A stretch of 7,818 bases of DNA, from the NCBI GenBank assembly GCA_001799195.1, contig MGSU01000121.1, forward strand, positions 1 to 7,818, written 5' to 3'. The notes beneath the pieces are model-generated. The model saw only the letters and a list, made by a program, of their open reading frames with translations, did no database searches and was not told where the DNA came from. This stretch comes from Deltaproteobacteria bacterium RIFOXYA12_FULL_61_11 (GTDB lineage Bacteria > Bdellovibrionota_F > JAHFAK01 > YA12-FULL-61-11). Positions 2,442-7,743 of the stretch are shown in pieces; the first letter of the stretch is position 1; the number at the start of each line of letters is the position of its first letter. The position numbers were made by a program, and so were the translations under genes.

Positions 2442-2470
2442 TTGACAAGTCTTCCCGACAACCTCATTAG
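2442..2470 (+). promoter_or_regulatory. Possible sigma-70-type promoter for the exbB-tonB operon
   Basis: The gap between the sirtuin stop and the exbB frame (2352-2469) holds a perfect -35 box TTGACA at 2442-2447. After a 17-base spacer comes CATTAG at 2465-2470, a weak -10 match (3 of 6). A second TTGAC lies 10 bases upstream at 2432. Transcription would start near 2477, just downstream of the annotated GTG, which would need a later start codon. No convincing terminator for leuS-sir2 is visible in the gap. Suggestive only. Confidence 0.35.
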
Positions 2471-3093
2471 TGAGGCTCGCTGGACTACTGCCACCCTCTG
2501 GCCGCTGCCCCCCCCTTTTCAACCGTTTGATTCTCTTTCTTTCTACCCGTGATCGGCTTTTGGTGCTCGAACCCAAGCTGAGCGCGGCGATCGCCGACCT
2601 GGACTTCATTGCCGCCAGGGCCACGGTCGACGGCGACAGCATGGTCCGTAACGTGCTCAGAGCCGGTTTAGACCAAGTTGCCCGGGGCAAGAAGAACCCC
2701 GGCGCCGCAGAGCAGGCCATGCTCGGAGTCCTGGCCAGAGAGAGAGCCCGCTACGATGCCTGGCTGACCGTGCTCGGGACCATCGGCAACAACGCGCCCT
2801 TCATCGGGCTCTTCGGCATGGTTCTGGGAATCATCGAAGCCTTCCACCACCTCGGTTCGGTCGACATCGCGGGGGTCAGCAGCAACCAGTACATTATGGG
2901 TGCGATCGGCGAGGCCCTGGTCGCGACCGGGGTCGGAATCCTGGTCGCCATACCGGCGGTGGCTTCCTACAACTGGGCGCGATCGACGATTACGAGCCGG
3001 GTTTCCCACACCGAGGCTCTCATGCGCGCGCTGCTCGCCGGAATCGGCTGCATCGATTGCAAACCCGACCAGCCTGCCGACGGAGTGCTCTGA
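2470..3093 (+). CDS. exbB: ExbB/TolQ/MotA-family proton channel subunit, N-terminus abnormal
   Basis: Inner-membrane subunit that, with ExbD, uses the proton gradient to energise TonB. The MotA/TolQ/ExbB domain is clear. A cytoplasmic region (about 28-95) is followed by a membrane segment with GTIGNNAPFIGLFGMVLGII (103-122). The last membrane segment has GEALVATGVGILVAIPAVA (147-165), including the family Glu (E148) and Thr (T153). At 207 residues it is about 30 short of typical relatives. The first membrane helix expected before the LFNRLILFLSTRDRLL segment (16-31) is missing. Residues 1-15 are Pro/Gly/Arg-rich and unlike the family. The GTG at 2470 has no clear Shine-Dalgarno site; the frame is closed upstream by a TGA at 2443-2445. 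A run of eight C and four T (2508-2519) sits exactly where family-like sequence begins. The true start is uncertain, and the gene may be frameshifted or 5'-damaged. The exbD start codon follows the stop after one base. Confidence 0.87.
   Translation: MRLAGLLPPSGRCPPLFNRLILFLSTRDRLLVLEPKLSAAIADLDFIAARATVDGDSMVRNVLRAGLDQVARGKKNPGAAEQAMLGVLARERARYDAWLTVLGTIGNNAPFIGLFGMVLGIIEAFHHLGSVDIAGVSSNQYIMGAIGEALVATGVGILVAIPAVASYNWARSTITSRVSHTEALMRALLAGIGCIDCKPDQPADGVL
3081..3085 (+). promoter_or_regulatory. Ribosome binding site of exbD
   Basis: CGGAG inside the last codons of exbB lies 9 bases before the ATG at 3095. It supports this start over the in-frame ATG nine bases later and implies translational coupling with exbB. 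Confidence 0.55.
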
Positions 3094-3094
3094 C

Positions 3095-3526
3095 ATGGCT
3101 GGCATGCAACACGAGGGCGATGCTCCTATCAGCGGCATCAACGTCACACCCCTGCTCGACGTGGTCCTGGTCATCTTGATCATCTTCATGGTCACCGCGT
3201 CGCTCACAGCGCGGCAGGCCTTGCAGCTCGACCTGCCGAGGGCCCAGACCGCATCCGAACAGCCGGGTGAGCTGCTCGGGGTGTCCCTCACCTCGGACGG
3301 TCGCATGTTCTACAACGGCCGGCCCGGGTCCCTGGACGACCTGCCGCAGATCGTCAGCCAAGCGCGCGAGCGAGCCGCCGGCAAGCCGGTCAGCGCCTTC
3401 GTCGCAGCAGATCGGAGCGTACCCTACGGCCTTTTTGCCGAGGTCATCGATCGCCTCCGTCTCGAAGGCATCGAAGAGATCGCCCTGGACACGCAACCCG
3501 TGGAAGCGAGCGAGCTCGAACGGTGA
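3095..3526 (+). CDS. exbD: ExbD/TolR-family biopolymer transport protein
   Basis: Partner of ExbB in the proton-driven motor that powers TonB. The protein has 143 residues, the usual family length. A short cytoplasmic N-terminus carries the family signature INVTPLLDVVLVILIIFMVT (15-34), which is also the single membrane helix. Asp22 in this helix matches the essential proton-carrying Asp of ExbD/TolR. A periplasmic domain of about 105 residues follows, with LDLPRA, the DGRMFYNG strand, and VAADRSVPYGLFAEVIDRLR (108-127), all typical of ExbD. The reading frame extends upstream into exbB, but the ATG at 3095 has a ribosome binding site and puts the N-terminus at the expected distance from the helix. 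The start is one base after the exbB stop, and its own stop overlaps the tonB ATG by one base, so the three are likely translated together. Confidence 0.96.
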   Translation: MAGMQHEGDAPISGINVTPLLDVVLVILIIFMVTASLTARQALQLDLPRAQTASEQPGELLGVSLTSDGRMFYNGRPGSLDDLPQIVSQARERAAGKPVSAFVAADRSVPYGLFAEVIDRLRLEGIEEIALDTQPVEASELER

Positions 3527-4326
3527 TGTTCATCCGTTTCGCGGGTATTCTCGGACTCACCTCGGCCCTGATCGTCCACGGAGCCGCCCTTGCCTATCTG
3601 TTCTTGGCAACTCCGCCCAGACCAGAACGATCCAAAGTAGGAGCCCCGCGCAAGATAACCACGGTCAGGACCTTGCCCACGCGGCCCGTCGTCATCGCGG
3701 CGAAGAGGGTCGAACCTCCTCCTACCGTGTCACGACCGGAGCCCCCGAAGAAACCGCCACGACAGAAGAAGTCTTCGCCCCAGTCCCTGCCGACACCCAC
3801 ACCGTCAGTCGAACCGGTTCCCGTCGTAGTGCAAGAGACGCCCCCCTCGGCCCCTGCCGCCGCTCCTGCACCCGCGGTGCCCCGCCGCTTCTCGGTAAGC
3901 TTGGAGGCGACCGTGCAGAGCGGAGGTATAGCGGTCCCGACCTCGCAGGAGGGGTGGACCTTCGGTACCCCGGACGGTAGCCCAGAGGGACAGCGCCGTC
4001 CTGCCGGTAGCGTGGATCAGCCGGCTCGAGCCGCCGAGGTGACCGCTTTACCCAGGCTCTTGGGGATGCCACCACTCGAGGACCTGCGCCGGGCTTACCC
4101 CGAACAGGCTCGCCGCGATGGCAGAGAGGCAGACGTCAAGCTCGAGGTTCTGGTCTCCGACCGCGGGAGCGTGCTCGAGGTTCGCATCCTCCAGTCCGCC
4201 GGACCCGACTTCGACCAGGCCGCGAAAGCCCTGGTCAGACGCTTCCGTTTCAGCCCCGGCAACCGGGGGGGTGCACCGGTTACGGTGTGGCTGCCCTGGA
4301 CCTACAAGTTCCGACTCGATGGATAA
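3526..4326 (+). CDS. tonB: TonB energy-transducer protein
   Basis: Links the ExbB-ExbD motor to outer-membrane receptors. The 266 residues show the standard layout: one N-terminal membrane anchor (about 5-28); a long Pro/Lys-rich, probably extended periplasmic region (about 30-120); a Gly/Ser-rich linker; and a TonB C-terminal domain (about 178-266). The C-terminal domain contains AYPEQARRDG (190-199), strands around VKLEVLVSDRGSVLEVRIL, then FDQAAKALVRRFRFSP and GAPVTVWLPWTYKF. The anchor keeps the HGA motif (His18), matching the His important in E. coli TonB; the anchor Ser is one position off. The ATG overlaps the exbD stop as TGATG. A GTG one codon earlier (3523) is possible and would add one residue. 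The receptor N-terminal frame starts 3 bases after the stop, so this TonB is probably dedicated to that receptor. Confidence 0.95.
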   Translation: MFIRFAGILGLTSALIVHGAALAYLFLATPPRPERSKVGAPRKITTVRTLPTRPVVIAAKRVEPPPTVSRPEPPKKPPRQKKSSPQSLPTPTPSVEPVPVVVQETPPSAPAAAPAPAVPRRFSVSLEATVQSGGIAVPTSQEGWTFGTPDGSPEGQRRPAGSVDQPARAAEVTALPRLLGMPPLEDLRRAYPEQARRDGREADVKLEVLVSDRGSVLEVRILQSAGPDFDQAAKALVRRFRFSPGNRGGAPVTVWLPWTYKFRLDG

Positions 4327-4329
4327 TCG

Positions 4330-4563
4330 ATGGATGAGAAGACCATGACGCTGCGCTGGTTTTGTCCGCTCCTGCTCTTGGTTCAGCTCTTCGACTCCAC
4401 CTGGGCCCAAGAGGCCGAGCCGACCTTGGCAGTACCTCCACGCCTGCTGGAACTTGTGCCTGCCGAGGTCCCTCCCGGCTACCGAGGTAATAGTCGTCCT
4501 CGGCCTGGATGTCTCGGCGGACGGCACCGTCGAGAAGGTCGAAATCTTGAGGGGAGCTGGTGA
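4330..4563 (+). CDS. Signal peptide and first part of the TonB-dependent receptor, out of frame with the rest
   Basis: This short frame begins with what the receptor needs. A basic start (MDEKTMTLRW; ATG at 4330 or 4345) leads into a hydrophobic core FCPLLLLVQLF and a likely signal peptidase I site after STWA (residues 23-26). The mature start QEAEPTLAVPPRLLELVPAEV (27-47) looks like the beginning of a TonB C-terminal-type domain. After about residue 49 the frame loses family character, becoming Arg/Gly-rich, and stops at 4563. The continuation of the same domain, EVIVVLGLDVSADGTVEKVE, appears in the next frame from about 4484. I therefore read this as the 5' piece of one gene with the feature at 4454-6877, not as an independent peptide. 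It follows the tonB stop by 3 bases. Confidence 0.75.
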   Translation: MDEKTMTLRWFCPLLLLVQLFDSTWAQEAEPTLAVPPRLLELVPAEVPPGYRGNSRPRPGCLGGRHRREGRNLEGSW

Positions 4564-6877
4564 ACCCTTCGACCGAGCTGCGCTCGATGCAGGTCGACGT
4601 TTCCGCTTCGAACCCGCCCGGCTGAGCACCGGCGAGGCCGTGCCCGTCTCGATCGAGTTCAAGCTGACCCTGAGTCCGCCCCCAGAACCGCCCCCACCGC
4701 CGGTACGCCTGAACGGCATCCTGCTCCAGCGTGGCAGGAGATTGCCTCTCCGAGGAGTCGAGATCCTGATCCGGGTCCAAGACCGCACCGTAACCTCCAC
4801 GCGCAGTGACGAACAAGGTCGTTTCTCGGTCGAGGTGCAGAGCCCCGAGTTCACCGTCCTCGCTGCTCCCGAAGGCCATGACCGTCTGGAAGCATCTATT
4901 CAAGCTGTTCCGGGAGAAGAGCGCGAAGAGGTGTATTACCTCGAGGCCGTTTCCGCGGACAATGAAACCGTCATCACCGCCGAACGCTTGCGCCGCGAGG
5001 TGGTTCGTCAGACCATTCCCAAAGAGGTCGTCCGCACGGCCGCCGGCACCCAAGGAGACGTGCTCAAGGTCGTCCAGAACTTGCCGGGTGCTGCTCGCGG
5101 TTCCTTCGGCGCCGGAGCCGTCATTCTGCGCGGGACCAGCAGCGAGGACAGCAGGGTCTACCTCCACGGACATGAGCTTCCGATCCTCTACCACTTCGGC
5201 GGCCTGCGCAGCACGGTCAACAGCGCCTTCCTCGAGGCCGTCGACTACGTTCCCGGCAATTTCGCGCCCGAGTACGGCCGCGCTATCGGCGGGGTGGTCG
5301 ACGGGCGCTTGCGCGATCCTGCCATCGACGACTTCCACGGCGAAGCCGATCTCAACCTCTACGACGCCGGCTTCATGGTGGAGGGGCCCCTCTCCGACCA
5401 GGTCGCGGTCGGCGCAGCCTTCCACCGCTCCTATGTCGACACCTTCCTCAACGCGGTCCTTCCCGAGGACGCACCCATCTCCTTCGATACCGCGCCGCGC
5501 TATTACGACTATCAGTTCCTCGCCACCTGGCGGCCCCGCCCCAACCACACCCTTCGACTCATTTGGCTCGGCTCTCTGGACCAGACGCGCCTCATCCTCT
5601 CCCGGCCCTCGGACGATCCGGTCCTGCGCGGGGCCATCGACGCCCGGATTATGTTCCACGACCTGCAACTGCGCCAGGAATGGAACGTCCGGCCCGGAGT
5701 GCGCGAGGAATTCTCGCTGATGGTCGGCCTGCAGCAATTCAAGACCCGCATCGGCCCGGACCTCTATTTTAACCTCGACGACCTCCCCGTCTCCGGCCGC
5801 TTCGCCCTGGAGTTCGAACCAACAGATCGCTTGGCCTTGCGCTGGGGTCTGGATGTGCTCTACGATCAGGTCTCCATCGACCTCCTCTCTCCGCTCCGCC
5901 CCCTCGAAGGCGAACAGTCCGCACCGATATCAGCGGGCAAGCTCTATGGCTTCAGCAACGAGACCGAGCTGTTCCAGCCCGCCACCTTTTTGGAGCTGCG
6001 TTGGAGTCCGACCGAACGGCTGATGCTCCTGCCATCACTCCGGTTGGATCATTACAGCCAACTCGATCGCACCACCCTCGATCCGAGGGTGACGGCCCGG
6101 TATCGTCTGTTCCCGGCCACGACGCTGGTGGCCGGCCTCGGAATGTACCAACAGCCGCCAACGCCGGATCAAAGCGCCGAACGTCTGGGCAATCCCGCAC
6201 TCCTCGCCCCGCGCAGCTTGCAAACCAGCCTCGGCGCCGAGCAAGACTTCGCCAAGGGGTTGAGCCTCGCAGTGACCGGCTTCCACAAGCGGCTCGATAA
6301 CCTGGTGAGTCGAAATCAGGCCTTCTTCTCCGACCCGGACGCGGTGCCATACCTCAGCGAGGGTACCGGCCGCATCTACGGCCTGGAACTCCTCTTCAAG
6401 GTCTTGTACGGCAAACGCCTGAGCGGCTGGCTAGCCTACAGTTACCAGCGATCCTTCCGCACCGACCAGCCGGGAGAAATCGAACGGCGTTTCGAGTACG
6501 ATCAGCCCCACAACCTCACCCTGCTCGGCAGCACCGAGTTCGCCCGCGTCTGGTCAGCTAGTGCGCGTTTCCGCTTGGTCTCCGGTAACCCGACCACCCC
6601 CGTGGTCGGCTCGCTCTACGATGCCGAGAGCGACACCTACCTCCCGGTCTTCGGTGAAACCTTTTCGGATCGCCTGGCGCCTTTCCACCAACTCGATCTA
6701 CGCCTCGATCGCCGCTTCACCTTCGACACCTTCCTCCTCGCGGCCTTCCTCGACGTGCAGAACGTCTACAACCGGGGGAACGAAGAGGGAACCCAGTACA
6801 ACTACGATTACTCTCGCCGCAAGGGTTTGACAGGGCTACCGATCCTGCCCATCCTCGGACTGAGGGGGGAGTGGTGA
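4454..6877 (+). CDS. TonB-dependent outer-membrane receptor with N-terminal TonB C-terminal-like domain
   Basis: Outer-membrane beta-barrel transporter or signal receptor, 807 residues in this frame (TTG start), about 850 if joined to the signal peptide at 4330. Domains in this numbering: TonB C-terminal-like fold (9-73; FDRAALDAGRRFRFEPAR at 39-56); proline linker (74-83); carboxypeptidase-regulatory-like beta domain (about 84-165; DEQGRF at 119-124); a TonB-box-like ETVITA (171-176); plug (about 183-300) with VLKVVQNLPG, VILRG (223-227), PILYHFGG, YVPGNF (265-270) and YGRAIGGVVD (274-283); then a 22-strand-type barrel ending in Trp807, a typical outer-membrane terminal aromatic. DVQNVYNRGN near the end is also receptor-like. 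The TTG at 4454 is probably not a real start: the product would lack a signal peptide and start inside the TonB-like domain. The substrate is not readable. The lipoprotein gene starts 2 bases downstream. Confidence 0.93.
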   Translation: MCLPRSLPATEVIVVLGLDVSADGTVEKVEILRGAGEPFDRAALDAGRRFRFEPARLSTGEAVPVSIEFKLTLSPPPEPPPPPVRLNGILLQRGRRLPLRGVEILIRVQDRTVTSTRSDEQGRFSVEVQSPEFTVLAAPEGHDRLEASIQAVPGEEREEVYYLEAVSADNETVITAERLRREVVRQTIPKEVVRTAAGTQGDVLKVVQNLPGAARGSFGAGAVILRGTSSEDSRVYLHGHELPILYHFGGLRSTVNSAFLEAVDYVPGNFAPEYGRAIGGVVDGRLRDPAIDDFHGEADLNLYDAGFMVEGPLSDQVAVGAAFHRSYVDTFLNAVLPEDAPISFDTAPRYYDYQFLATWRPRPNHTLRLIWLGSLDQTRLILSRPSDDPVLRGAIDARIMFHDLQLRQEWNVRPGVREEFSLMVGLQQFKTRIGPDLYFNLDDLPVSGRFALEFEPTDRLALRWGLDVLYDQVSIDLLSPLRPLEGEQSAPISAGKLYGFSNETELFQPATFLELRWSPTERLMLLPSLRLDHYSQLDRTTLDPRVTARYRLFPATTLVAGLGMYQQPPTPDQSAERLGNPALLAPRSLQTSLGAEQDFAKGLSLAVTGFHKRLDNLVSRNQAFFSDPDAVPYLSEGTGRIYGLELLFKVLYGKRLSGWLAYSYQRSFRTDQPGEIERRFEYDQPHNLTLLGSTEFARVWSASARFRLVSGNPTTPVVGSLYDAESDTYLPVFGETFSDRLAPFHQLDLRLDRRFTFDTFLLAAFLDVQNVYNRGNEEGTQYNYDYSRRKGLTGLPILPILGLRGEW
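4470..4490 (+). other. Frameshift site in the receptor gene
   Basis: Meaningful coding passes from frame 1 to frame 2 here. Both frames are open across the site: frame 2 from 4349 on, frame 1 up to 4563. Skipping one base, for example G4477 after the CCC codon at 4474-4476, joins VPAEVPP to ATEVIVVLGLDV and restores a continuous signal peptide plus TonB-like domain. No classic -1 slippery heptamer is present. Confidence 0.7.
6866..6871 (+). promoter_or_regulatory. Ribosome binding site of the lipoprotein gene
   Basis: GGGGAG, part of a longer purine run at the end of the receptor gene, lies 8 bases before the ATG at 6880. It favours that ATG over the in-frame GTG codons at 6871 and 6874. Confidence 0.6.
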
Positions 6878-6879
6878 CC

Positions 6880-7743
6880 ATGCAACCGATCCACCGCACG
6901 ACCTCGGCCATGGGGTTCATACTGTTCCTCGGCCTCCTCTCCTGCAGCGAAACCTTCGAGCCGCCCTCGTACCTATCAGACCTGCGCGTCCTTGCGATCC
7001 TGGCCTCTCCCCGGCCAGCATCACCCGGGGAAGAGATCACGGTAAGGGCGGTACTGTACGTGCCGCCTGGAGAGACTGTGACCGAGGAGCGTTGGACCTT
7101 TTGCCCCTTCAGCGCCGGCGCCGCGAGCGGCTATATCTGCCTCGATCCCTCCTGTGAGGTCGAGGTCGAGGCCTCGGCCGACGGAAGCGTGAGGACGAAA
7201 CCGCACGAGTTGGCGCTGGCCTGCCTAGCCCGTTTCGAGAACCAACTCCTCGACGGACTGCCCACCACGATACCCTCGACCGTAGAGGTCCTGTTCCGCT
7301 ACCGCGTCGCCACGTCCTCCGGACAACGCCGCGAGGCGTTGCTGCGCTATCCCCTGGCCACAGCCCCGAACGCCGCGCCCAAACAACGCGATCCGGTGAT
7401 CCGAGAAGTGCAATTCGACGGCACACCGTTGGCTCCGGGACATCGAACCCCGCCGGTTGCAACCGAGGGCGAACTCGAGGTCACCGTGGACATCGATCCC
7501 GACAGTTTGGAACGTTACCAAGATGAGGCAGGCCGCGAGCGGCGCGAGACCCCGGTGGTGAGCTTCTTCTCCACTGCCGGACGTTTCGAGGCCAACAAAG
7601 CCGAGGGCGAAACGGCAACCTTGCGTTGGAAGGCGGAAAAATTGTCGGCCACCGACGAGGAAGCAGCGATCTGGATCGTGGTTCGGGATCTGCGGGGAGG
7701 CCAGGCGGTGGCCGGCCCCTTCTTGATCCCCCTGATCCGCTGA
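6880..7743 (+). CDS. Secreted lipoprotein of unknown function, receptor-linked
   Basis: Predicted 287-residue lipoprotein. A short N-terminus and hydrophobic stretch (MGFILFLGLL, 11-20) end in the lipobox LLSC, with Cys22 as the lipid-modified residue. Ser at the next position would favour the outer membrane under the E. coli sorting rule. The mature start FEPPSYLSDLRVLAI (26-40) followed by SPGEEITV resembles, from memory, lipoproteins found beside myxobacterial receptors. I cannot name a Pfam family. Four more cysteines (75, 87, 92, 115) could form disulfides in the periplasm or on the surface. The rest is rich in predicted beta strands and may be one or two sandwich-like domains (inference). 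The gene starts 2 bases after the receptor stop (TGACCATG), so translation is probably coupled. A role as substrate-binding or barrel-capping partner of the receptor is plausible but unproven. Confidence 0.88.
   Translation: MQPIHRTTSAMGFILFLGLLSCSETFEPPSYLSDLRVLAILASPRPASPGEEITVRAVLYVPPGETVTEERWTFCPFSAGAASGYICLDPSCEVEVEASADGSVRTKPHELALACLARFENQLLDGLPTTIPSTVEVLFRYRVATSSGQRREALLRYPLATAPNAAPKQRDPVIREVQFDGTPLAPGHRTPPVATEGELEVTVDIDPDSLERYQDEAGRERRETPVVSFFSTAGRFEANKAEGETATLRWKAEKLSATDEEAAIWIVVRDLRGGQAVAGPFLIPLIR

Follow-up and report, generated by a model that had tools for sequence, protein, structure and literature searches.

TonB normally pulls outer-membrane transporters open. Its C-terminal domain binds the TonB box, and it meets its receptor around its last strand and the stretch that precedes the YP motif. 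What may precede the box and the plug varies among receptors: a survey of 34,893 receptors recognises five N-terminal architectures, which combine CarboxypepD_reg, STN and AMIN domains, and a TonB C-terminal domain (TonB_C) is not one of those it lists (PMC6434023). Here we analyse a stretch of 7,818 nucleotides (the window) from Deltaproteobacteria bacterium RIFOXYA12_FULL_61_11, in which a TonB_C is fused to the N-terminal side of a receptor. The fusion is real, ancient and conserved, but it is annotated piecemeal and under-described, and in the literature searched we found no description of the role of this architecture.

The domain is already part of a curated, named family, given that the M. 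xanthus receptor L170 passes the model of the myxochelin receptor MxcH (NCBIfam NF038079; 1020 bits, cut-off 925) and carries TonB_C at residues 83-145. MxcH and the window receptor share an N-terminal TonB_C on a plug-barrel receptor; however, the latter reaches only 42 bits on the same model (cut-off 925), through its TonB_C part only, and is therefore not MxcH. The gene order of the window, exbB-exbD-tonB-fused receptor-lipoprotein, is also that of an M. xanthus-type locus, which in two close Myxococcus genomes consists of exbB, exbD, a 266-aa TonB, a 920-aa fused receptor and a lipoprotein. According to PMC6434023, attempts to delete the receptor MXAN_0821, which lies in a complete Ton cluster, failed, and MXAN_0820, the TonB of that cluster, ends at residue 266; the text consulted makes no mention of a TonB_C domain. 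Judged by gene order and TonB length rather than by the DK1622 sequence, MXAN_0821 probably carries the fused TonB_C.

Other described receptors resemble the window receptor in part. Members of the Oar/SusC class have a regulatory-like domain before the TonB box, for which the window receptor scores below the Pfam cut-off, but the Oar-type M. xanthus receptor L174 has no TonB_C match. STN-type receptors (FpvA, FecA, FoxA) likewise bear an extra N-terminal periplasmic domain before the box, although it belongs to a different family, and the window has neither an STN match nor a FecR-like gene nearby. Free TonB shares the TonB C-terminal domain itself, whereas the fused copy is preceded by neither a membrane anchor nor a proline-rich stem, is secreted with a signal peptide and is joined to an outer-membrane barrel.

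Gene order and receptor domains in the window

The features of the window are as follows.

Upstream of exbB, + strand: 3′ part of leuS, then a Sir2-type gene
2470-3093, + strand: exbB (MotA_ExbB; PF01618, 93.1 bits)
3095-3526, + strand: exbD (PF02472, 92.3 bits)
3523-4326, + strand: tonB, with its C-terminal domain at 4093-4308 (residues 191-262; PF03544, 65.4 bits)
4330-6877, + strand: receptor gene, in two frames
4330-4479, + strand: signal peptide (..LLLLVQLFDSTWAQ) and start of TonB_C (PPRLLELVPAEVPP) in the first frame, from translation, family consensus and codon-position GC
4454-6877, + strand: receptor ORF, second frame
4493-4660, + strand: receptor TonB_C (PF03544; ORF residues 14-69, profile positions 18-73 of 79)
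4745-4921, + strand: carboxypeptidase-regulatory-like domain (PF13620, 18.1 bits, under the cut-off of 32.3)
4964-4981, + strand: TonB box ETVITA, from the sequence, aligning with the ETVVRA-like boxes of relatives
5009-5296, + strand: plug (PF07715, 30.2 bits)
5750-6766, + strand: beta-barrel of TonB-dependent receptor, profile match (PF00593, 91.3 bits; the ORF ends at 6877)
6871-7743, + strand: lipoprotein gene, conserved in the module (own profile, 244 bits)

The receptor adjoins a complete exbB-exbD-tonB set and is part of a module exbB-exbD-tonB-receptor-lipoprotein. Its domains follow one another in the order TonB_C, carboxypeptidase-regulatory-like domain, TonB box, plug and barrel, and the plug, barrel and TonB box by which a TonB-dependent transporter is recognised are all present. 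The original prediction, made from the sequence, had placed a TonB C-terminal-like domain ahead of the TonB box and plug and had proposed a profile search for it; this search gave a significant match to Pfam PF03544 (35.5 bits, cut-off 24.6, E 1.3e-8), NCBIfam TIGR01352 was likewise matched above its cut-off (38.6 bits against 27.1), and the box lies exactly where it had been predicted. A PDB sequence search with the receptor domain returned E. coli TonB as the best match (1ihr/1qxx, E 6e-5), as well as the BtuB-bound E. coli TonB 2gsk (E 1e-4). The domain had moreover been called closely parallel to the end of the adjacent TonB, and here the homology stands while the closeness was overstated, about one third of the residues being common to both by hand count; the highest identity of the window TonB_C in the data set, 45%, is to another receptor.

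The receptor gene is frame-broken just 5′ of the TonB_C profile match. The signal peptide and first TonB_C residues are in frame from 4330 and the remainder lies in the next frame, with the exact break point not fixed, and the receptor is thus split over two frames instead of forming one intact frame with a signal peptide. The family consensus over the TonB_C start is KPPxLxxSxEATYPxxA, and the codon-position GC is coding-like in both frames (0.70/0.44/0.74 and 0.72/0.47/0.74). A hydrophobicity scan against the intact paralogue, in which the first membrane helix of exbB is present, found this helix absent in every upstream frame of the window exbB examined. The exbB region 2341-2560 adjoins a run of C. 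Two genes of one operon, exbB and the receptor, hence look damaged or misassembled, and their defects may be assembly errors or real decay. The genomes compared include only two from the window genome's own phylum. The window genome itself has, on contig C342 (L007), an intact module of exbB, exbD, tonB, lipoprotein and receptor, and the 891-aa receptor encoded there comprises a TonB_C (52.8 bits), a CarboxypepD_reg domain (PF13620, 33.6 bits, above the cut-off of 32.3), a plug and a barrel, so that the fused architecture is independent of the broken window copy.

The window lipoprotein is modelled as two Ig-like beta-sandwiches (pLDDT 89); it matched no Pfam or NCBIfam family, and a fold search for its function gave generic matches only. 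Other copies of the module lipoprotein lie at 2192-3127 in L007 and at 8641-9510 in L041. Among the 38 clusters whose flanks are long enough on either side, 30 have it before or after the receptor, and it may be a surface partner of the receptor. The next gene downstream, beyond the window on contig C121 (L010, 7903-10197), has several tandem LLPIDHED copies near its start.

Distribution and origin of the fused domain

A genome scan with a single protein as query gave no matches, and a three-sequence profile scan found 317 relatives. Of these, 79 loci were retained, nearly all of which come from bins assigned to Myxococcota or 'Deltaproteobacteria'. After dereplication at 70% identity, TonB_C is present in 51 of 54 receptor clusters, the other three being two fragments and L049, and in all intact relatives it lies in one frame with the plug and not in a separate gene, the outcome that had been named as fatal to the fusion. 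When a myxobacterial genome (G029) was taken as the centre of a phylum search, 186 of 195 genomes in its phylum matched a query spanning TonB_C to plug, the best matches covering most or all of the query. The fusion is thus old and nearly universal in Myxococcota, and not a local oddity.

Within the single M. xanthus genome searched, TonB_C is found in 5 of 19 plug-carrying frames. Some fused receptors, L172 of M. xanthus among them, are without the regulatory-like domain. A highly conserved fused receptor with an adjoining lipoprotein (L173, L061 in M. xanthus) occurs in nearly all Myxococcaceae examined, and exbB, exbD and tonB are not near it. The survey of fusions beside exbB-exbD-tonB that had been called for found all three genes nearby in 14 of the 38 clusters that have 3 kb or more of upstream DNA; such linkage is common, then, but not general, the full set not being nearby in the other 24. 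L049 (4221-9112), from another lineage, keeps the same five-gene order with a receptor that has no TonB_C, from which it follows that the module can work without the domain; this locus is a natural comparison for what TonB_C adds. In an unrelated genome, TonB_C-like matches occur twice in the one frame of an 875-aa ORF (L047, 4245-6872) in which the search detected no plug; it is possibly a tandem TonB domain protein.

In regards to origin, duplication of the adjacent tonB had been put forward as one possibility, and it is not supported, since the window receptor sits among receptors that are already fused. In a tree of plug and barrel only, it nests inside the fused Myxococcota receptors, which makes a fresh copy of the adjacent tonB unlikely, and the fused state needs three changes as against 14 in shuffles. 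Trees of the domain itself separate fused from free TonB with 4 to 5 changes, as against about 19 to 23 in shuffles. A clade uniting the fused domain with its own neighbouring TonB was rejected for L007 (p 0.014), L042 (p 0.039) and L093 (p 0.00015); these rejections, together with the plug-barrel nesting, speak against a recent duplication of the neighbouring tonB. For the window, the AU test on the same grouping (p 0.59) is uninformative because its domain is cut short and stands on a long branch. One tree placed the window domain beside E. coli TonB, which is ascribed to long branches. The data are better accounted for by an old fusion that was passed on together with the receptor than by local duplication.

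Constraint on the domain and a structure model

The alignment of 46 receptors indicates that the fused TonB_C is under selection and is more conserved than the barrel and the free TonB C-termini: mean pairwise identity is 43% for the fused TonB_C (25% of columns with at least 80% identity), 50% for the plug (28% of columns), 38% for the barrel (18%) and 35% for the regulatory-like domain (11%), with 36% for the free TonB C-termini. The fused and free classes differ before the YP motif, at a conserved Glu and on the last strand, the Glu being strictly conserved in the free TonBs (26 of 26) as against 27 of 56 fused domains.

The structure was considered in the M. xanthus homologue, of which an AlphaFold2 single-chain model has a pLDDT of 82.9. 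In this model, which finds matches among solved receptors, Cir and BtuB included, residues 36-123 show the strand-and-helix order of a TonB C-terminal domain (pLDDT about 80), the regulatory-like domain is at 142-222, and the TonB-box region at 225-236 is disordered (pLDDT below 50), forms no strand and does not pair with the fused domain.

Possible roles of the fused domain

We infer the role of the fused domain throughout, and conservation by itself would fit docking, gating and wall binding alike. Our ranking places docking first and self-blocking second; an envelope anchor comes after these, as do signalling and the lack of any function. The most likely reading, which we hold tentatively, is that the fused domain serves as a TonB-docking module in the periplasm. 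By TonB-type sheet pairing it would engage the C-terminal domain of a free TonB, or a TonB-ExbD complex, and would thereby bring the right TonB to the TonB box about 100 residues downstream, after which TonB would pull the plug as usual; where a genome encodes several TonB paralogues, partner choice and faster capture would follow. Such a role is suggested by the TonB_C matches above cut-off in the window and its relatives and the strong constraint on the domain, by the predicted strand and helix order of the M. xanthus homologue, and by the recurrent operon linkage to exbB-exbD-tonB, the M. xanthus-type locus included. Free TonB would still be needed, since the TonB box is retained downstream of the fused domain. 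Partner choice is a real problem in M. xanthus, given that only five of its 21 TonB_C matches fall within plug-carrying frames. Another N-terminal extension, that of SusC, has been suggested to act in choosing TonB (PMC7782687). However, the 24 clusters in which the full exbB-exbD-tonB set is not nearby, and L049 without the domain, argue against docking.

It is possible, if doubtful, that the fused domain is a built-in TonB mimic controlling energisation, which would compete with free TonB, or relay to it, at the receptor's own box. We consider unlikely a self-blocking gate, in which the fused domain would bind its own TonB box as an extra strand until the box is released upon substrate binding or through competition by energised TonB. 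TonB C-terminal domains bind TonB boxes by nature, the edge strand of TonB_C is kept, and TonB_C comes close to the box where the regulatory-like domain is missing, as in L172; in most members, however, a domain of 80 residues lies between the two, and a full-affinity cis binder would tend to block transport. A parallel exists in FpvA, whose signalling domain and TonB box together make up a four-stranded sheet, and in FecA, whose box is blocked by the signalling domain (PMC11658791). Occupation of the receptor's own box had been among the original suggestions, and self-pairing is not predicted by the disordered, strandless box of the model, weak evidence as a single-chain model is; it is on this point that docking is favoured over self-blocking.

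The constraint on the domain, which shows no dependence on a neighbouring Ton system, would also agree with an anchor that binds peptidoglycan or another part of the envelope and positions the receptor under the wall, and peptidoglycan binding has been reported for ExbD, a partner of TonB (PMC11658791). Our data nevertheless hold no pointer to wall binding, and the class-specific conserved positions include the regions of TonB-receptor contact, in front of the YP motif and along the last strand, so that an anchor seems improbable.

A stand-in for STN that talks to an inner-membrane regulator is very unlikely, even though the domain occupies the same place, between signal peptide and TonB box: searches for STN (PF07660) came up empty in the window (E up to 1) and in relatives (E up to 0.1), the genome's only FecR-like gene is on another contig (C241), and the receptor's neighbours are Ton genes and a lipoprotein. 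An STN-type signalling receptor proper was rejected for want of an STN domain and of a regulator nearby. The domain might also be a functionless remnant of an ancient fusion, retained through descent only, or belong to a pseudogene decaying in the window. This would suit the broken receptor frame and the exbB without its first membrane helix, but is highly improbable in view of the intact paralogue in the same genome and of a domain that is more conserved than the barrel in intact relatives and present across the whole phylum.

Bacteria with many TonB paralogues face the problem of matching each receptor with the proper TonB at the proper moment. With a constrained TonB_C found phylum-wide, and probably also in the undeletable M. 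xanthus receptor, docking and self-blocking can be told apart genetically. If the fused domain does act as a TonB mimic, the transporters of a whole phylum would add to the Ton system a second layer of control that they encode themselves.
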